Positions 23,237 to 38,261 of a stretch of DNA of 64,000 nucleotides are shown piece by piece. The stretch is from NCBI RefSeq assembly GCF_900102425.1, contig NZ_FNBT01000007.1, positions 124,001 through 188,000 of the forward strand, given 5' to 3'. The number at the start of each line of letters is the position of its first letter. Position 1 is the stretch's first letter. The DNA is from Blastococcus aurantiacus. GTDB lineage: Bacteria; Actinomycetota; Actinomycetes; Mycobacteriales; Geodermatophilaceae. The position numbers and the translations under genes are program-made. The notes under the pieces were generated by a model. It did no database searches, was not told the DNA's origin, and saw only the letters and a list, made by a program, of their open reading frames with translations.

Positions 23237-25186
23237 GTGACGCAGAGTGATACGTCGACGACGTTGTCCACTCAGCGTGACGGAACCGTGCCGTTTCGGC
23301 GCACCTGGGCCGTCGAAGAGCCGCCGCGCACCGACTCCGCCCGGACCGAGCGCGGGAGCTGGCAGGAGCGCATGGGACTGACCGTCGAGGACGCGCTGGA
23401 GCTTCCGGGGCTGGCCGGCACCACCGTCGCCGCAGGGGCGAGCGGTCTGGCGCGGTCGGTCCGGCACATGGTCATCGACAAGCCGACCGACCCGCTCGCC
23501 GGTGCCGGGATCGACGTGCTCGTGGTGCTGGGCGCCCGGCTGCCGCCCGCCGACCCGGCCAACTGCCGGGCGCTGGTCGAGCGGCTGGACTCGATGGGGA
23601 CCGCGGCGCTGGCCTTCCGTCGCACCGAGGGTCCGCCGCCGATCCCGGCCGAGGTGCTCGCCGAGGCCGACCGCCGTGGGCTGCCGGTCCTGGCGCTGCC
23701 CGCCGGTGTGCGCCTGGACGAGGTCGTCTCCGAGGTCCTGGGCGCGGTCGTCACCAAGCAGGGCCAGGCGCTCGCGCTCAACTCGCGCATGGACGACCAG
23801 TTCATGGAGGTCGCACTCACCGGGGGTGGGCTGGCCGAGGTCACCCAGCGGCTGGCCGTGATGCTCGACGGGGCGGCGGTCCTCGGGTTGGGACCCGACC
23901 GCGAGGTCGTCACCAGCGCCGGCCCCCGGGACGACGTCGCCGAGATCAGCGACTGGCTGTGGCTCCTGGACGCCGCCGCCGACGACGCCCTGGCCGAGCT
24001 GACGCCGTCGCGGCGGCTGGCCGGCGTGCGGGCCGACCGCACGGTGGTCACCCCGGCCGACGTGCTCGCCGACGCCGACCTCTCACCGGCCGACGGCATC
24101 CTGCTCGTGCCCGGCCACCACCAGCTGCCCGGCGGGGTGGGGGAGTACGCGGTCGCACCGATCATGGCCGGCGACCAGCGGCACGGTTGGCTGGTCGCCG
24201 TGCACCGGACCGGCGCGATGCTGGTCGGCGCGGGCGGCGTGCTGGAGCGCGCGGCGGTCATCGCGGCGCTCTCGGTCATCCGCCTCCAGGCGGTGCACTC
24301 CGTGGAGCTGCGCTTCCAGGGCGACCTGGTGCGCCGGCTGGTGGGCGGCTCGGTGGGCCACACCGAGCGCACCCTGGCCTACACCCGGTCCTTCGGCTGG
24401 CGGCTCGACGGGCCGGTCGCCGTCCTGGTCACCGCGACCGAGACCATCGCCGATGCCAGCGGTGACCCCACCCGCGCGCTCGACGTCCTCGACCGGCTGG
24501 CCGACGGCTGGCGGTCGGCGCTGGAGGCCGAGGTGGCCGGCGCGGCCGTCGCGGGGCTGGCCACCGAGATCGTCACGCTCCTGCCGCTGGACGGCCGCAC
24601 CCCCGACGAGGTGTCCTCCCTCGTGACCGCCGTCGCCTCCCGGGTCAACGGCCGCCTGCGCCGGCTGGGCCGCGTGCTGGGGACCGGCATCGGCCGGCCC
24701 GCCGGGTCGCTGTCCGAGCTCGCCGAGGCGCACCGCCAGGCGCAGCGCGCACTCGGCGTCGGGCAGGAGATCCAGGGCGGGGCCTCGGTCACCCACTTCG
24801 ACCAGCTCGGGGTGTTCCGGCTGCTCTCGCTGATCCCGGACAGCACCGAGCTGCGGTCCTACGTCGACGAGGTGCTCGGCCCGCTGGCCGACGCCACGGA
24901 CGCCGACTCCGCCGACCTGCGCGAAACGCTGCTGGTGCTGCTCGAGACCAACCTCAACGTCGCGGAGTCCGCTCGCCGGCTGCACTTCCACTACAACACG
25001 ATGCGCTACCGGATCGGCAAGCTCGAGCGCATGCTCGGGCCCTTCACCAGTGACCCGACGCTGCGGCTGAACCTGCTGCTGGCCCTGCACGCCGCCCGGA
25101 TGAGCGGCCTGGACCAGCCGCACCGCCCGCCGCTCGAAGCCGGGATGACGCCGCCGCCCGACGAGGGGCTGGACTCACTGCTCTAG
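23237..25186 (+). CDS. PucR-family transcriptional regulator
   Basis: Regulator of purine catabolism type. The 649-residue protein has a Ser/Thr-rich lead of about 45 residues, then a PucR_N sensor domain (about 48-165: LTVEDALELPGLAGTTVAAG). A middle GAF/GGDEF-like region follows, and a C-terminal HTH_30 domain lies near residues 550-610 (LRETLLVLLETNLNVAESARRL, then HYNTMRYRIGKLE). The GTG at 23237 follows AAGGGGGA. The stop overlaps the convergent deaminase gene by four bases. The effector is unknown; allantoin or purines would fit the neighbours. Confidence 0.85.
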   Translation: MTQSDTSTTLSTQRDGTVPFRRTWAVEEPPRTDSARTERGSWQERMGLTVEDALELPGLAGTTVAAGASGLARSVRHMVIDKPTDPLAGAGIDVLVVLGARLPPADPANCRALVERLDSMGTAALAFRRTEGPPPIPAEVLAEADRRGLPVLALPAGVRLDEVVSEVLGAVVTKQGQALALNSRMDDQFMEVALTGGGLAEVTQRLAVMLDGAAVLGLGPDREVVTSAGPRDDVAEISDWLWLLDAAADDALAELTPSRRLAGVRADRTVVTPADVLADADLSPADGILLVPGHHQLPGGVGEYAVAPIMAGDQRHGWLVAVHRTGAMLVGAGGVLERAAVIAALSVIRLQAVHSVELRFQGDLVRRLVGGSVGHTERTLAYTRSFGWRLDGPVAVLVTATETIADASGDPTRALDVLDRLADGWRSALEAEVAGAAVAGLATEIVTLLPLDGRTPDEVSSLVTAVASRVNGRLRRLGRVLGTGIGRPAGSLSELAEAHRQAQRALGVGQEIQGGASVTHFDQLGVFRLLSLIPDSTELRSYVDEVLGPLADATDADSADLRETLLVLLETNLNVAESARRLHFHYNTMRYRIGKLERMLGPFTSDPTLRLNLLLALHAARMSGLDQPHRPPLEAGMTPPPDEGLDSLL

Positions 25187-26166
25187 GCGGGACCGGCCAG
25201 CCAGGCGTCGATGCCCGCGTGCAGCCGACGCCGCACCGGCTCGGGGGCGAAGGACGCGTCCACCGAGGTCCGGGCCAGCTCGGCCAGTGCCTCGTCGTCC
25301 CAGCCGTGCACCTCGCGCACCGCCGCGTACTCGGCCGGCAGCGACCAGCCCGTCTCCGCCGGCACGTCGGTGGACAGGGTGACCACCAGGCCCGCATCGC
25401 GGAGTGCCGGCAGCGGGTGCTCGGCCAGGCCCGGCACGAGCCCGAGGGCGACGTTGGAGGAGGGGCACACCTCCAGCGGGATGCCGCGGTCGCGCAGCTC
25501 GGTCACGAGGCCGGGGTCCTCCAGCGCCCGGATGCCGTGGCCGATGCGCTCGGCGCGGCCGACACCGATCGCCTCCCGGATGCTGGCCGGACCGGCCGTC
25601 TCCCCGGCGTGGTGGACGAGGTGCAGCCCGGCGTCCGCGGCGTCGGCCACGACCTCGGCGAACGGTGCCAGCGGGTGGTCCTCGGCACCGGCGAAGCCGA
25701 CACCCACCACGCCCTGCGCGCGGTACCGCGCGGCCAGCTCGACGGTCCGGCGGAAGCGCTCGACCGACCGGCGGCGCGGATGGTCGAGGAGCACCTGCAC
25801 CTCGAGACCTGTCTCGGCGCGGCCGATGGCCAGCCCCTCGAGCACGGCCGCCAGCGGCATCTCCGGGTCACCGAGCCGCTCGCCGTGGCCGGCCGCGGTG
25901 ACCGTCACCTCCGCGTAGCGCACGCCGTCGGCGTGCTGGTCGGCGCAGAACTCCCGGGCCACGCGGACGAAGTCCTCCGGCCGGCGCAGGCAGTCGCGCA
26001 CCGCCCCGTTCACCTCGGCGAAGGCGCCGAAGCCGGCATGGCGCGGTGTCCGCGGCGGGAGCGCGACCCCGTGGTCGTCCGCGAGGTCGCGCGCGGTGGA
26101 CGGGCGGACGGTGCTCTCCAGGTGCACGTGCAGGTGCGCCGTGGGCAGGGCGGAGAGGTCGCGCAC
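25183..26166 (-). CDS. adenosine deaminase family protein, altered active site
   Basis: A 327-residue TIM-barrel amidohydrolase of the ADA family. The metal site is present: HVHLE near residue 14, HAGE near residue 190, the His in RIGHG, and the Asp of LSTD near residue 270. The next residue, normally a second Asp that contacts the purine ring (DDP), is Val here (TDVP), so the substrate may not be adenosine. Adenine or a modified purine nucleoside is possible. The GTG at 26166 is supported by TACGCT exactly six bases upstream. It converges on the PucR gene. Confidence 0.8.
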   Translation of the reverse strand: MRDLSALPTAHLHVHLESTVRPSTARDLADDHGVALPPRTPRHAGFGAFAEVNGAVRDCLRRPEDFVRVAREFCADQHADGVRYAEVTVTAAGHGERLGDPEMPLAAVLEGLAIGRAETGLEVQVLLDHPRRRSVERFRRTVELAARYRAQGVVGVGFAGAEDHPLAPFAEVVADAADAGLHLVHHAGETAGPASIREAIGVGRAERIGHGIRALEDPGLVTELRDRGIPLEVCPSSNVALGLVPGLAEHPLPALRDAGLVVTLSTDVPAETGWSLPAEYAAVREVHGWDDEALAELARTSVDASFAPEPVRRRLHAGIDAWLAGPA

Positions 26167-26172
26167 CGGCGC

Positions 26173-26178
26173 AGCGTA
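26173..26178 (-). promoter_or_regulatory. -10 box for leaderless deaminase gene
   Basis: TACGCT lies exactly six bases before the GTG at 26166. This both predicts a leaderless transcript and decides between that start and longer in-frame starts. Confidence 0.5.
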
Positions 26179-26261
26179 CGAGGGCCGGTGTGCGTGCCGT
26201 GCCGGTCCGGGGCAGGGTTCGGGGAAGTGCCGCACCCTGCGGCCCGGAGGAGGAGACCCAC

Positions 26262-27098: not shown

Positions 27099-28643
27099 TC
27101 AGTCGTGGAAGACCTCGATGGCGGCGCCGATCTCCACCAGGCGCTCGTAGAGGTGCTCGTAGCCGCGGGCGATGATGTCGACGTTGCGCAGCACCGAGGT
27201 GCCCTTCGCCGCCAGCATCGCCAGCAGGATGCACACCGCGGGGCGCAGGGCCGGCGGGCAGACCACCTCGGCGCTCGACCAGTGCGTCGGGCCGTCGACG
27301 AGCACGCGGTGCGGGTCCAGCAGCCGGACGTCGGCGCCCAGGCGGGTCAGGTCGGAGAGGTGGATCGCCCGGTTGTCGTAGACCCAGTCGTGGATCATCG
27401 TCGCCCCCTCCGCCTGCGCGGCGATGACCGCGAAGAACGGCAGGTTGTCGATGTTGAGGCCCGGGAACGGCATCGGGTGGATCTTGTCGATCGGCGCCCG
27501 CAGCTGCGAGGGGTGGATGGTGATGTCGGCCAGCCGGGTGTGCCCGTTGTCGGCCAGGTACTCCGGGGACAGCTCGTAGCGAAGCCCCATCTCGGCCAGC
27601 ACCGCGAGCTCGATCTCCAGGAACTCCACCGGCGCCCGGCGCACGGTGAGCTCGGAGCCGGTGACGATGCCGGCGGTCAGCAGGCTCATCGCCTCGACCG
27701 GGTCCTCGCTGATCGTGTAGTCCACGTCGGCGTCCAGTACCGGCTGCCCGTGGACGGTGAGGGTCGTCGTTCCCAGGCCCTCGATCTGCACGCCGAGCAG
27801 CTGCAGGTACAGGACCAGGTCCTGGACCATGTAGTTGGAGCTGGCGTTGCGGATGGTCGTGGTGCCCTCGGCGCGGGCAGCGGCGAGCAGCGCGTTCTCG
27901 GTGACGGTGTCGCCGCGCTCGGTCAGCACGATCGTCCGGCTCGTGGCACCGGTCGGTGTGACGGTGCCGTGGTACTCGCCGGCCCGCGCCTCGATCTCCA
28001 GCCCGAAGGGGCGCAGCGCGATCATGTGCGGCTGCACGGTGCGGGTGCCCAGGTCGCAGCCACCGGCGTAGGGCAGCTCGAACTCCGGCGCCCGGTGCAG
28101 CAGCGGGCCCAGGAACATGATGATGCTGCGGGTGCGCCGGGCGGCGTCGGCGTCGATGCCGGCCAGGTCGAGCTGCTCGGGGACGACGAGCGTGAGGTCG
28201 TGACCGGCCTCGTCCCAGGTGGCGGAGACGCCGATGGAACGGAGGACGTCGAGGATCCGCTCCACCTCGACGATGCGGGCCACGTTGCGCAGCGTCGTCC
28301 GGCCGCGGTTGAGCAGTGCCGCGCACAGCAGTGCGACGGCGGCGTTCTTGGACGACTTCACCGCCACGCTGCCGCTGAGCAGCCGCCCGCCGGTGACCCG
28401 CAGGTGCGTGGGGCCGGCCGGGCCGACGCGGATCAGCTCGCTCTCCAGGGCCGCGGACAGCCGGCCCAGCAGCTCGAGCGTGAGGTTCTGGTTCCCCTGC
28501 TCGATACGGGCGACCGCGCTCTGGCTGGTGCCCAGCCGCTCGGCGAGCTGCTGCTGGGTGAGTCCCCGGTGCCGCCGGGCGTCGCGGACCAGCGCGCCGA
28601 TCCGGTGCATCGCGGTGTCGGGGGAGAGTTCGGTGACCGTCAC
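27099..28643 (-). CDS. XRE helix-turn-helix fused to MurA-type enolpyruvyl transferase
   Basis: A 514-residue fusion. Residues about 10-70 form an XRE-type DNA-binding domain (RDARRHRGLTQQQLAERLG, then SQSAVARIEQGNQN). From about residue 80 a UDP-GlcNAc 1-carboxyvinyltransferase-like domain follows, with the two-lobe EPSP/MurA fold. Conserved MurA positions are visible: Lys and Asn in SSKNAAV, the loop GGCDLGTRTVQPH containing the catalytic Cys, and Asp in FPGLNIDNLPF. It may make cell-wall precursor as a second MurA, or act on a related sugar nucleotide, while controlling its own gene. The GTG at 28643 is preceded by a -10 box and palindromes. Confidence 0.85.
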   Translation of the reverse strand: MTVTELSPDTAMHRIGALVRDARRHRGLTQQQLAERLGTSQSAVARIEQGNQNLTLELLGRLSAALESELIRVGPAGPTHLRVTGGRLLSGSVAVKSSKNAAVALLCAALLNRGRTTLRNVARIVEVERILDVLRSIGVSATWDEAGHDLTLVVPEQLDLAGIDADAARRTRSIIMFLGPLLHRAPEFELPYAGGCDLGTRTVQPHMIALRPFGLEIEARAGEYHGTVTPTGATSRTIVLTERGDTVTENALLAAARAEGTTTIRNASSNYMVQDLVLYLQLLGVQIEGLGTTTLTVHGQPVLDADVDYTISEDPVEAMSLLTAGIVTGSELTVRRAPVEFLEIELAVLAEMGLRYELSPEYLADNGHTRLADITIHPSQLRAPIDKIHPMPFPGLNIDNLPFFAVIAAQAEGATMIHDWVYDNRAIHLSDLTRLGADVRLLDPHRVLVDGPTHWSSAEVVCPPALRPAVCILLAMLAAKGTSVLRNVDIIARGYEHLYERLVEIGAAIEVFHD

Positions 28644-28649
28644 CGGGTC

Positions 28650-28673
28650 ACGTTATCTCGTGTATGAGATACA
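28650..28673 (-). promoter_or_regulatory. promoter and overlapping palindromic operator of HTH-MurA gene
   Basis: On the minus strand TAACGT (28650-28655) is six bases before the GTG. Two interlocking palindromes overlap it: TATCTC-GTGTAT-GAGATA (28654-28671) and TGTAT-GAG-ATACA (28661-28673). This is the form expected for an XRE repressor site and predicts autoregulation by the encoded N-terminal domain. Confidence 0.6.
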
Positions 28674-28727
28674 CCCGGCTGCGCCGTGCCGGTGCCACCC
28701 GAAAGGTTTCCGGTCCAGGATGGGCGC

Positions 28728-33539: not shown

Positions 33540-33741
33540 CAGGTGCCGAAGGTGGCGTGTCCGATTGTGAACACTGCGTGCCGTTTTGCTGTGGCCAGCA
33601 CCACTGGATCTCCAGTGGCCGATCTCGGGGCCCCGTTCTATGGCCGGCTGCGTCGGACGGCGGCGTCGCCACTCTCCGTGCAGGGGCGACTGCATGTCCG
33701 CTACCGGGGTGCGGGCACCGACACGCGTCTCGTGGCGTCGC

Positions 33742-33784
33742 GTTCCCGATTCGTTACCTGGCGGTCGCAAGCGGTCCTTAACGT
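33742..33784 (+). promoter_or_regulatory. PHO-box-like direct repeats and -10 box
   Basis: Two adjacent 11-base units, GTTCCCGATTC and GTTACCTGGCG, followed by a weaker GTCGCAAGCGG, resemble the 11-base direct repeats (GTTCACC-type) bound by PhoP in streptomycetes. TAACGT (33779-33784) follows five bases later, a position suited to activation. The downstream nuclease/5'-nucleotidase is a plausible phosphate-starvation target. Confidence 0.45.
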
Positions 33785-33836
33785 CCGCCGCCGTCACCCA
33801 GCTCCACCGCATCCAGTCCCTCGGAAGGATCAACGC

Positions 33837-36800
33837 GTGCCCGAAATCCTCGGCACCGCACGGCGATCAGGCACTGCACGTGCCCTCGGACGCCGCGCCG
33901 CCATCGGCACCGCCGCTGTCTCCATGGCAGTGGTCGGCATGCCCGCGCTCGCCCTCGCGGCGCCCCCGACCGCGCCCTTCATCTCGGAGATCCACTACGA
34001 CAACGACGGCACGGACACCGGCGAGTTCGTCGAGGTCCACCTGCCTGCCGGGACCAGCTCCGCGGGACTGTCCGTCGTTCTCTACAACGGGAGCAACGGC
34101 GCCACCTACGGCACGCTCGCTCTCCCCGAGGTGACCGCGCCGGCAGATGCCCCCGCTGTCGTGGCCGTCGACGGTCCGGCCAACGGCATCCAGAACGGCG
34201 CACCGGACGCGCTGGCCCTCATCCGTGACGGCGCCGTCCTGGAGTTCCTCTCCTACGAGGGGACCTTCGCGGCGACGAACGGCCTGGCTGCCGGTACGAC
34301 CAGCGTCGACATCGGCGTCTCGGAGGCAGGCAACGAGCCGGCCGGCCAGTCGCTGTCCCGCACCTACGACGCCGCTGCGGACGCACTGGTCTGGGCCGGT
34401 CCCGCGGCGAGCACGCGCGGCGCGGTCAACCCCACCACAGGCGGCGAGACGCCCGGTGACGGTGAGACCCCCGGAGACGGTGAGACCCCCGGAGACGGTG
34501 AGACCCCCGGAGACGGTGAGACCCCCGGAGACGGTGAGACCCCCGGCGACGCCTGTGCGACCGAGCCGACCCACGCGGTCGGGACGGTGCAGGGCACCGG
34601 CGACACGACGCCGCTCGACGGCCAGACGGTCACCGTGCGCGGCGTCGTCGTCGGCGACCTGCCCGGCATGTCCGGCTTCTTCGTGCAGGACGCCGGCGAC
34701 GCCAACCCCGCCACGTCCGACGGCGTCTTCGTCTTCAGCCCCGCGGCGGTGGACCTCGGCGACACCGTCACCGTGAGCGGCCCCGCGGCGGAGTACTTCG
34801 GGCAGACCCAGATCGGCGACGGCAACACCGTCACCGTCTGCGCCGAGGGCACTGCGGCCGACCTCCCCGCGGCCACCCCGCTGGACCTGCCGGCCGACGA
34901 CGACGCGCGCGAGCGGGTCGAGGGCATGCGCGTCGAGCCGGTGGACGACCTCACCGTCAGCGAGGTCTACGACCTCACCAGCTTCGGCGACCTGACCCTC
35001 TCCGAGGGCGGCCTGCTGGTGCAGCCGACCGAGCTCGCGCCCCCGGGGCCGGCTGCCGAGGCGATCGCGGTCCAGAACGAGCTGCGCCGCATCGTCCTCG
35101 ACGACGCGGTCGGTGGCCGCACCAGCGTCGAGACCGCCCCGTACCTGACGTCGGCGAACCCCGTCCGCGTCGGTGACGTGGTCGACTTCACCGAGCCGCT
35201 GGTCATGGGCTACGGCTTCGACCAGTGGCGGCTCTTCCCGGCCGACGGCACCGCGGACGGCGTGTTCGCGCCGCAGGACACCCGGCCGGAGTCCCCGGAC
35301 CCGGTCGGCGGCGACATCCAGGTCGGCGCGTTCAACGTGCTGAACTACTTCCTCACCTTCACCGGCTCCGATGCCCGGGGCGCCCGCAGCCAGGCCGCCT
35401 TCGAGCGCCAGGCCGCCAAGATCGTCACGGCCATCAACGCGATGGACGCCGACGTGCTGGCGCTCATGGAGATCGAGGACACCGCTTCCACCGGCTTCGG
35501 GGACGGCGGCCCGGACCAGGCGGTCGCCGACCTGGTCGGGCGGTTGAACGCGGCCGCCGGCTCCGCCAAGTGGGCCTACAGCGCCTTCCCGGAGGAGCTG
35601 CTGGGCACCGACCGCGACGTCATCCGCAACGCGGTCATCTACCAGCCGGCGTCCGTGACGCCGGTCGGGGACGCCGTCGGGCTGGTCGACGAGACCAACT
35701 TCGACAACGCCCGCGAGCCCATCGCCCAGACCTTCGAGGCCGAGGGCGACGTCTTCACCGTCGTCGCCAACCACTTCAAGTCCAAGGGCAGCGGCTCGGG
35801 GGCCAACGCCGACCAGGGTGACGGCCAGGGTGCCTCCAACCCCGACCGCATCGGCCAGGCCGAGGCGCTCGCCGGTTTCGTCGAGGAGCTGCAGGCGAGC
35901 ACCGGCGACGACGACGTGATGGTGCTGGGCGACCTCAACGCCTACTCCCAGGAGGACCCGATCCGGGTCCTCGAGGCGGCCGGCCTGACCGACCTGGGCA
36001 CCGCCTTCGACCCGGGCCGCTACAGCTACGTGTTCGACGACCAGTCCGGATCCCTGGACCACGCGATGTCGACCGCGGGCCTGACGGCCAAGGTGACCGA
36101 CGCCGCGCACTGGAACATCAACTCGGTGGAGTCCTTCGCCTACCAGTACACCGGCGACCCGGCGCTCTACGCCCCGCACCAGTTCCGCTCCAGCGACCAC
36201 GACCCGCTGATCGTGGGCCTGGACCTGGGCGAGCCCGGGGACGGCGGCGTCATCGACGACGGCCTCACCGAGCTCCAGCTGCTCGGGTTCAACGACTTCC
36301 ACGGCCGGCTGGGCGAGGCCGTCGCCCTCGCCGGCACGGTGGAGGAGCAGCGGGAGCGCGACGACATCGACGCCACCGTGCTGGTCTCGGGCGGTGACAT
36401 CATTGGCGCCTCGCCGTTCGTCAGCTCCGTCCAGCAGGACGCGCCGACGCTCGAGGTGCTCAACGAGATGGGCCTCGACGTCTCCACGGTGGGCAACCAC
36501 GAGTTCGACCGTGGCTTCGAGGACCTGATCAACCGGGTCGGCGTGGACGGGGAGAGCGGCCTGGCCGACTTCCCCTACCTGGGTGCCAACGTCTACTTCG
36601 ACAACGGCGACCCCGCCCTGCCGGAGTACGTCCTCACGGACGCTGCCGGTGTCTCGGTCGCCTTCATCGGCGTGGTCACCGAGGAGACCAGCTCCCTGGT
36701 CTCCCCGGCGGGCATCGAGGGGATCACCTTCGGGGACCCGGTCGAGGCCGCCAACCGGGTCGTCGGTGAGCTCACCGACGGCGCCGGCGACGAGGCCGAC

Positions 36801-38261
36801 GTGATCGTCCTGCTCGCCCACGAGGGTCCCCCCGGCGACGACCTGGAGGAGCAGCGGGCCGCGGACACCGCATTCGCCGACATCCTCGCTGACGTCGACG
36901 CCGACGTGGACGCGATCTTCAGCGGCCACACCCACCAGACCTTCGCGTGGGAGGCGCCGGTGGGCGACGGCGGGGAGACCCGGCCGGTCATCCAGAGCGG
37001 GTCCTACGGTGAGCTGCTCGGCCGCATCTCGCTGACCTTCGACGAGGCCACCGACGAGGTGATCGAGTTCGAGGTCGAGAACCTGGAGCTCACCGAGCGG
37101 TCGGAGGAGGACCTCGTCGCCGCGTACCCGCGGGTCGCCGAGGTCGCCGGGACCGTCGCCGAGGCCGAGGCCTTCGCCGACGAGGTGGGCAGCGAGGTCA
37201 TCGGCTCGCTGGTCGCCGACATCACGCGGGCCTTCACCGCCGACGGCACCGAGGACCGCGGGTCGTACTCGGCGATCGGCGGCCTGGTCGCCGACTCCTA
37301 CGTCTACGGCACCGAGCTGTCGGCGGGGGCGCCGGCCGACCTCGGCCTGGTCAACCCCGGTGGGCTGCGCGCCGACCTCCTCTTCGACGAGGAAGGTGCA
37401 CCCGGGGAGATCACCCTGGCCGAGGCCAACGCGGTGACCCCGTTCGCCAACGACCTGATCGTGGTCAGCCTGACCGGCGAGCAGCTGGTGCGGGTCCTCG
37501 AGCAGCAGTGGCAGCCGGAAGGCAGCTCGCGTCCGTTCCTCGCACTGGGGACGTCCGAGGAGCTGACCTGGTCCTACGACCCGGAGCAGCCGGCCGGTGA
37601 GCGCATCATCGTCGACAGCATCCGGATCTCCGGTGAGCCGATCGACCTGAGCGCGACCTACCGGGTGGCGACCAACAGCTTCCTGGCCTCGGGTGGTGAC
37701 AACTTCACCGCGTTCGCCGAGGGCACGTCGGAGGAGACGGGTCTGATCGACTTCGAGGGCTTCCAGGCCTACATCGAGGACAACCCGGGGCTGGACCCGG
37801 CGGACTACCTCGGCCGCGTCACCCTGACCGACGGCTCGACGCCGCCGCCCGGCGACGGTGACGGTGACGGCGAGCAGCCCGGTGACGGTGACGGTGACGG
37901 GGAGCAGCCGGGTGACGGTGACGGCAACGGCTCCGGGAACGGGAACGGGGAGCAGCCCGGTGACGGGAACGGCTCCGGCAACGGGAACGGCTCCGGCAAC
38001 GGGAACGGCTCCGGCAACGGGAACGGGAACGGGAACGGCCCCGGCAACGGCTCCGGCAACGGCTCCGGCAACGGCTCCGGCAACGGGAACGGCTCCGGCA
38101 ACTGGGACGCCGGCAGCGGGGACGACTTCGGGAAGGGCGGGGACTCCCTCGCCTACACCGGGGCCGAGGTCACCGGCCTGGTCGGCCTGGGGCTCCTCCT
38201 GACCGCCGCCGGTGCGGCGACCGTGGTCGCGGCCCGGCGCCGGAAGGGCCTCGCGGACTGA
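33837..38261 (+). CDS. secreted wall-anchored nuclease/5'-nucleotidase fusion
   Basis: A 1474-residue multidomain exoprotein. It has an N-terminal signal (about 1-41, Arg-rich with a GRRAAIG start) and a lamin-tail-like domain (48-150). GETPGD repeats (202-238), an OB-fold (240-341) and an ExeM/NucH-type endonuclease/exonuclease/phosphatase domain (about 490-798: IQVGAFNVLNY, LALMEIED, GDLNAY, SSDHDPL) come next. A 5'-nucleotidase metallophosphatase (about 812-1075: LGFNDFHG, GGDIIGAS, GNHEFDRG, SGHTHQ) with its C-terminal domain (to 1320) follows. A Gly/Asn/Asp-rich linker then leads to LAYTG at 1438-1442, a membrane segment and RRRK. It would degrade extracellular DNA to nucleosides and phosphate. 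The GTG at 33837 follows GGAAGGA. Confidence 0.92.
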   Translation: MPEILGTARRSGTARALGRRAAIGTAAVSMAVVGMPALALAAPPTAPFISEIHYDNDGTDTGEFVEVHLPAGTSSAGLSVVLYNGSNGATYGTLALPEVTAPADAPAVVAVDGPANGIQNGAPDALALIRDGAVLEFLSYEGTFAATNGLAAGTTSVDIGVSEAGNEPAGQSLSRTYDAAADALVWAGPAASTRGAVNPTTGGETPGDGETPGDGETPGDGETPGDGETPGDGETPGDACATEPTHAVGTVQGTGDTTPLDGQTVTVRGVVVGDLPGMSGFFVQDAGDANPATSDGVFVFSPAAVDLGDTVTVSGPAAEYFGQTQIGDGNTVTVCAEGTAADLPAATPLDLPADDDARERVEGMRVEPVDDLTVSEVYDLTSFGDLTLSEGGLLVQPTELAPPGPAAEAIAVQNELRRIVLDDAVGGRTSVETAPYLTSANPVRVGDVVDFTEPLVMGYGFDQWRLFPADGTADGVFAPQDTRPESPDPVGGDIQVGAFNVLNYFLTFTGSDARGARSQAAFERQAAKIVTAINAMDADVLALMEIEDTASTGFGDGGPDQAVADLVGRLNAAAGSAKWAYSAFPEELLGTDRDVIRNAVIYQPASVTPVGDAVGLVDETNFDNAREPIAQTFEAEGDVFTVVANHFKSKGSGSGANADQGDGQGASNPDRIGQAEALAGFVEELQASTGDDDVMVLGDLNAYSQEDPIRVLEAAGLTDLGTAFDPGRYSYVFDDQSGSLDHAMSTAGLTAKVTDAAHWNINSVESFAYQYTGDPALYAPHQFRSSDHDPLIVGLDLGEPGDGGVIDDGLTELQLLGFNDFHGRLGEAVALAGTVEEQRERDDIDATVLVSGGDIIGASPFVSSVQQDAPTLEVLNEMGLDVSTVGNHEFDRGFEDLINRVGVDGESGLADFPYLGANVYFDNGDPALPEYVLTDAAGVSVAFIGVVTEETSSLVSPAGIEGITFGDPVEAANRVVGELTDGAGDEADVIVLLAHEGPPGDDLEEQRAADTAFADILADVDADVDAIFSGHTHQTFAWEAPVGDGGETRPVIQSGSYGELLGRISLTFDEATDEVIEFEVENLELTERSEEDLVAAYPRVAEVAGTVAEAEAFADEVGSEVIGSLVADITRAFTADGTEDRGSYSAIGGLVADSYVYGTELSAGAPADLGLVNPGGLRADLLFDEEGAPGEITLAEANAVTPFANDLIVVSLTGEQLVRVLEQQWQPEGSSRPFLALGTSEELTWSYDPEQPAGERIIVDSIRISGEPIDLSATYRVATNSFLASGGDNFTAFAEGTSEETGLIDFEGFQAYIEDNPGLDPADYLGRVTLTDGSTPPPGDGDGDGEQPGDGDGDGEQPGDGDGNGSGNGNGEQPGDGNGSGNGNGSGNGNGSGNGNGNGNGPGNGSGNGSGNGSGNGNGSGNWDAGSGDDFGKGGDSLAYTGAEVTGLVGLGLLLTAAGAATVVAARRRKGLAD
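34443..34551 (+). repeat. 18-base coding tandem repeat (GETPGD x6)
   Basis: Six tandem copies of an 18-base unit (GGTGAGACCCCCGGAGAC and close variants) encode GETPGD repeats in a linker of the nuclease. The near-identity at DNA level suggests recent slippage, so copy number may vary among strains. Confidence 0.9.
37851..38104 (+). repeat. low-complexity coding repeats (GDGDGEQP / GSGNGN)
   Basis: Short GGTGACGGTGACGG and AACGGCTCCGGC-type repeats encode a flexible Gly/Asp/Asn/Ser linker that would span the cell wall between the 5'-nucleotidase domain and the sorting signal. Confidence 0.85.

Follow-up and report, generated by a model that had tools for sequence, protein, structure and literature searches.

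An XRE-MurA fusion of Blastococcus aurantiacus, orthologous to Streptomyces murA2, as a probable repressor of its own gene at a single conserved operator

BzdR joins an XRE helix-turn-helix (HTH) to a shikimate-kinase-like domain and represses transcription until benzoyl-CoA binds (PMC3602430). For murA2 of Streptomyces, the passages that name the gene describe developmental control. In S. venezuelae, murA2 (sven5810) has a direct BldM-WhiI Group II promoter with a DNase I footprint, and it is a sporulation target activated by BldM-WhiI (PMC4125116). For SCO5998, a second promoter that depends on SigB is reported (PMC8346170), and a DmdR1 box is predicted for the gene in a passage of PMC12161575. 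Another passage states that overexpression of murA2 did not reproduce the effect of whiI overexpression on exploration (PMC11005364). An HTH, an operator and autoregulation go unmentioned in the passages naming murA2 in three of these papers (PMC4125116, PMC8346170, PMC12161575).

Here, we describe the orthologous gene of B. aurantiacus, found in a 64-kb stretch of the genome (the window), together with a palindrome that its product very probably recognizes. One passage of a 2025 survey of XRE motifs gives 5622 computed motifs (PMC12565409), and this operator may be among them.

The XRE-MurA fusion and its enzyme half

The gene (27099..28643, reverse strand, GTG start) was delimited by its open reading frame and by domain searches, and it encodes 514 amino acids. 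The initial annotation had described one protein with an XRE HTH and a complete MurA-like domain whose Cys loop is intact, and both halves were recovered. Pfam places HTH_3 at residues 19-67 (28443..28589, reverse strand; E 6e-13), with HTH_31 as a second HTH match in the N-terminus (E 3e-10), and EPSP_synthase at residues 84-502 (27138..28394, reverse strand; E 2.6e-49). The Cys loop reads AGGCDLGTR, in which GGCDLGTR holds the counterpart of E. coli C115. The protein scores above the cut-off of the NCBIfam MurA subfamily PRK09369 and below that of the murA equivalog TIGR01072 (311.2 vs 392.7 bits); PRK08154 matches the HTH part only, below its cut-off. An AlphaFold model built from 35 orthologues (mean pLDDT 86.6) has the full MurA fold and four N-terminal HTH helices (8-25, 30-37, 41-48 and 56-65), and its least certain part is the Cys-loop lid (pLDDT < 50 at 195-201). 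A Foldseek search with the model ranked MurA structures first among PDB entries (TM-score by target up to 0.90-0.92, 25-30% identity), above NikO and EPSP synthases. The C-terminal half is therefore of the EPSP_synthase/MurA type by both Pfam and model, and is not the shikimate-kinase-like domain of BzdR and BoxR. A toxin-antitoxin reading was rejected: the HipB-like HTH match (TIGR03070) is weak and below cut-off, and no toxin domain was found in XRE-MurA or among the neighbouring genes that were scanned.

By neighbourhood and copy number, this gene is the orthologue of murA2 (SCO5998, sven5810, vnz_28735). In four Streptomyces neighbourhoods it lies 0.6-7 kb from an aconitase gene, as SCO5998 lies beside SCO5999 (acnA), and Streptomyces genomes mostly carry just two MurA-like genes each.

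The catalytic residues of MurA (E. coli numbering throughout) are all present. K22, N23, R91, C115 and R120 are invariant in 94/94 orthologues, and D305, R331, R371 and R397 in every orthologue that covers them, so that the full PEP and catalytic set (K22, N23, R91, C/D115, R120, D305, R331, R371, R397) is kept; dN/dS is 0.08-0.27. The nucleotide pocket, whose residue roles rest on E. coli MurA, was compared between nine XRE-MurAs and 22 other MurAs, taken from E. coli and a diverse set of actinobacteria. The other MurAs have S162, D49, E188 and D369 in 22/22, V163 in 21/22 and D123 in 20/22; in 9/9 XRE-MurAs, S162, D49, E188, D369, V163 and D123 have given way to G, E, N, P, D and Q/E, respectively. 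The altered loop reads ERGDT in all 94 orthologues, and S162-V163-G164 form the diphosphate-binding region of MurA (PMC8698320). The domain thus looks catalytically competent towards PEP and does not look like a standard UDP-GlcNAc enzyme. The earlier suggestion that UDP-GlcNAc is the sensed ligand has become doubtful, because pocket residues that vary little or not at all among the 22 other MurAs were all replaced and then nearly frozen in the XRE-MurA family; a link to PEP may still hold, since all PEP and catalytic residues are invariant. No relatives of XRE-MurA lacking the HTH were found: identity jumps from at least 61% to at most 38%.

The only other MurA-like gene of the B. aurantiacus genome is an ordinary HTH-less murA (G000:C12:203884-205131; L002) with 35% identity to XRE-MurA; its neighbours were judged by eye. 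This housekeeping MurA has Asp at the Cys115 position (GGDAIG), the fosfomycin-insensitive type, as do those of two other family genomes sampled, and XRE-MurA has Cys. We rejected a fosfomycin-sensor reading of this contrast as not general, because the Streptomyces housekeeping MurA also has Cys at position 115. Between Blastococcus and Streptomyces, the MurA domain of XRE-MurA is about 70-72% identical, whereas the housekeeping MurAs of the same pair share 38%, a contrast that suggests either strong constraint or transfer between lineages; lineage-specific replacement of the housekeeping murA, or transfer of XRE-MurA, is possible on these sequences. The Streptomyces housekeeping MurA (L215-L218) is about 38% identical to L002 and about 35% identical to E. 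coli MurA.

Two other loci of the window are recorded here. A 1572-aa open reading frame (33543-38261, forward strand) encodes a large secreted-type protein with an endonuclease/exonuclease/phosphatase domain and a metallophosphatase-5'-nucleotidase pair, followed by Gly/Asp-rich repeats and a C-terminal hydrophobic segment; it is a probable extracellular nuclease-nucleotidase. At 23237-26235, a gene for a PucR-family regulator adjoins an opposing adenosine deaminase gene, a probable purine-salvage control pair.

A conserved palindrome on the promoter

The operator, ATCTCATACACGAGATA (28654..28670, reverse strand), fits the family consensus ATCTCA-N4-TGAGATA and, as the motif ATCTCA-N5-GAGATA, overlaps the -10 element. 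Two interlocking palindromes on a leaderless promoter had been proposed initially. Both are real and perfect (TATCTC-N6-GAGATA at 28654-28671; GTGTAT-N3-ATACAC, with CTC as its centre, at 28660-28674), and they are two of the four perfect palindromes with A/T-rich 6-nt arms in the window; only the first is conserved in orthologues. The other is probably incidental, and its role as a second operator was rejected for want of conservation.

The -10 element TAACGT (TANNNT; 28650..28655, reverse strand) begins with the last two bases of the operator and stands 6 nt ahead of the GTG. When 89 distinct orthologous upstream regions were aligned on the site, its last-position T, four bases past the operator, was present in 87. 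Apart from this T and the palindrome, the 89 regions have no conserved column in the 70 nt upstream of the site or between it and the start codon, and no conserved -35. We infer that the TANNNT formed by the conserved T is an actinobacterial -10, and the transcript is probably leaderless, given that six bases separate this element from the GTG. The dyad of the operator is centred in the -10/-35 spacer, about 8 bp upstream of the -10.

The initial annotation had staked its proposal beforehand on the palindrome recurring upstream of orthologues, and it does so in 92/94 of them (79 loci with upstream sequence from a scan of the collection and 15 from a phylum sample), from Blastococcus to Streptomyces. 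The lineages are Geodermatophilaceae, Streptomyces/Kitasatospora, Allokutzneria and Hamadaea, and ATCTCA-N5-GAGATA typically lies 9-13 nt from the start codon. Scored without conditioning on the motif, 92/93 loci have at least 10 of the 12 fixed operator bases and 85 have all 12. The single exception among these 93 is L023; the orthologue of G197 (L147), scored separately, is without the operator. Best scores in random 330-nt stretches are mostly 6-8, with a maximum of 9 provided that the few scores of 11-12 are stretches holding the real operator.

The operator and the recognition helix (TSQSAVARIEQG, residues 39-50) were lost together. Residues 39-43 (TSQSA) are identical in 92/94 orthologues, and the two exceptions, Geodermatophilus tzadiensis L023 (SQSAV to SQSDV) and G197 (MTEQDI), are also the only two orthologues without a recognizable operator. 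Such a coincidence would arise by chance about once in 4,400 if the sequences were independent, and it comprises two events. From this joint loss, which is the best indirect evidence, and from the co-occurrence of site and gene, there is strong reason to hold that the HTH reads the conserved operator. The G197 orthologue at G197:C1:1261500-1264500 (L201) has a frameshift near codon 392, a degenerate HTH and no operator, and is either a decaying copy or a sequencing error.

One site and one gene

The 4.16-Mb genome of B. aurantiacus holds a single exact operator site and no other place within one mismatch of it; sites with two mismatches number 25 against 10 for a reversed control pattern, none of them close to the consensus. 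Among 24 genomes of the genus, the operator occurs in 17/17 with the gene and in 0/7 without it (Fisher about 3e-6, the sequences being related), once per genome except for one poor extra in G017. In Streptomyces, 60/61 genomes sampled have the gene and 55/61 have the exact site, which almost always immediately precedes the gene. Four of the genomes without an exact site carry versions with one or two mismatches, and of the remaining two, one is N-masked there and the other (82% complete) is without the gene.

A wider XRE-MurA regulon was rejected, and the extra Streptomyces matches were accounted for where checked. One of them, ATCTCAACGTTGAGATA, is shared by four Streptomyces genomes; at the two loci checked (L192 9935-10044; L195 7255-7346), it has a MarR-family gene on one side and a divergent MFS transporter gene on the other, and is likely a MarR operator resembling the XRE-MurA site. 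The extra site near the XRE-MurA gene of G503, the one checked of its kind, is inside a ROK coding sequence. An operon or cluster context was rejected as well: no neighbour genes are conserved between lineages, so XRE-MurA would be a stand-alone module. Since the conserved site marks its own promoter and is essentially absent from the rest of the genome, XRE-MurA very probably represses only its own gene and, if the operator is its only target, has a regulon of one gene.

We consider it probable that XRE-MurA is a self-repressing enzyme, with an XRE dimer on its own operator as sole target and a MurA-type domain that binds a ligand and thereby changes the affinity for DNA. The XRE domain would bind ATCTCA-N4-TGAGATA as a dimer, and the bound dimer would occlude the -10 and block RNA polymerase at its own promoter, the gene itself being the sole target. 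The C-terminal domain would be an enolpyruvyl transferase of MurA descent, with the PEP and catalytic machinery kept and the nucleotide pocket remodelled. Binding of substrate or product would most likely alter DNA affinity, by relief or by tightening, and the gene would then be expressed when the ligand calls for more enzyme. The repression of its own gene proposed initially has gained strong comparative-genomic support: autoregulation, in which XRE-MurA almost certainly represses no gene but its own, is indicated by the conserved operator, the co-occurrence of site and gene, the single site per genome and the joint loss of operator and helix. The position of the site argues for repression rather than activation. 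The domain architecture and the BzdR precedent hint at ligand control, and the ligand may be the substrate or product of the enzyme itself.

A single dedicated operator with no other target would also serve plain negative autoregulation, in which the HTH holds the enzyme level constant and senses no ligand, and a passage of the XRE survey describes autoregulation as common among XRE proteins (PMC12565409). We regard this as unlikely, given that BzdR and BoxR sense ligands and that the HTH-enzyme fusion is kept in every member found; such a lasting fusion to an enzyme able to change conformation suggests that the two halves are coupled. Slightly less likely is that the protein is a genuine second MurA, sensing UDP-GlcNAc (or UDP-MurNAc/PEP) and thereby tying the level of cell-wall precursor to its own expression. 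The MurA fold, the complete catalytic set and the PRK09369 score agree with it, and the activation by BldM-WhiI in sporulation and the link to SigB, as given in the passages on murA2 (PMC4125116, PMC8346170), fit a wall-related role. Against this stand the six conserved UDP-pocket residues replaced in every XRE-MurA sampled, among them part of the diphosphate-binding region S162-V163-G164 (PMC8698320), the score below the TIGR01072 cut-off, and the housekeeping murA already in the genome. More speculative still, and doubtful, is a bifunctional enzyme-repressor whose signal is a covalent PEP adduct on the active-site Cys, known in MurA structures, or a new acceptor other than UDP-GlcNAc, with the Streptomyces 'MurA2' misannotated. 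If true, the locus would be a one-gene PEP-sensing switch, and 'MurA2' would transfer enolpyruvyl to a new substrate that is produced in development.

The dyad centre between -10 and -35 and the unconserved -35 recall MerR-type proteins, which activate from this spacer position, yet we think it very improbable that XRE-MurA activates its own promoter in this manner. The right arm of the operator covers the first two bases of the -10, a blocking position, and spacer distortion is, to our knowledge, not a trait of XRE domains. It is hardly credible that the palindrome belongs to another regulator and lies on this promoter by chance. Streptomyces murA2 does have other inputs in the passages that name it, namely BldM-WhiI, SigB and a predicted DmdR1 box (PMC4125116, PMC8346170, PMC12161575), but the site is unlike the BldM-WhiI consensus TGnnCCGnnCGGGTGA, follows the gene in 17/17 and 0/7 genomes of the genus at one site per genome, and was lost jointly with the recognition helix.

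Comparison with murA2, MurA, NikO and BzdR

Self-repression would operate beside these published inputs. In about 18/57 Streptomyces-type upstream regions, a TCACCCG half-site resembling the one in the BldM-WhiI consensus precedes the operator by 29-41 nt, so that the activator would share this promoter with the proposed repressor. In relatives, a sequence matching the SigB-dependent promoter precedes the operator by about 340 bp, and given this second promoter, the operator may not control all murA2 transcription. The gene is carried by 60/61 Streptomyces genomes sampled and, in the passages that name it, is a sporulation target regarded as a spare MurA; the DNA-binding domain, the operator with its single site and the rebuilt pocket change what to test about it. 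XRE-MurA probably acts as a metabolite-responsive switch, and it may also be an enzyme with a substrate other than those assigned. Its circuit would be a natural one-gene, one-site switch with a short, well-defined operator.

Streptomyces murA2 is about 70% identical to the B. aurantiacus protein over its full length, HTH included, and has the same operator, whereas the published passages naming it present the protein as a second UDP-GlcNAc transferase. Housekeeping MurA (E. coli MurA and L002) resembles XRE-MurA in fold and in PEP and catalytic residues, but has no HTH, is 34-35% identical to it, and differs in UDP-pocket residues at about eight conserved positions. NikO of nikkomycin synthesis shares the MurA-type fold and uses it on another substrate (4fqd, 27% identity); it lacks an HTH, belongs to a biosynthetic gene cluster, and is less similar in sequence to XRE-MurA than MurA is. 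BzdR and BoxR, like XRE-MurA, fuse an XRE HTH to a small-molecule enzyme fold, and are repressors with an operator on the promoter (PMC3602430). BzdR governs a catabolic operon and no longer has kinase activity, whereas XRE-MurA carries a MurA-type enzyme with intact catalytic residues, and no target was found for it besides its own gene. Since those residues are intact, unlike in BzdR, XRE-MurA may be both a working enzyme and its own repressor.
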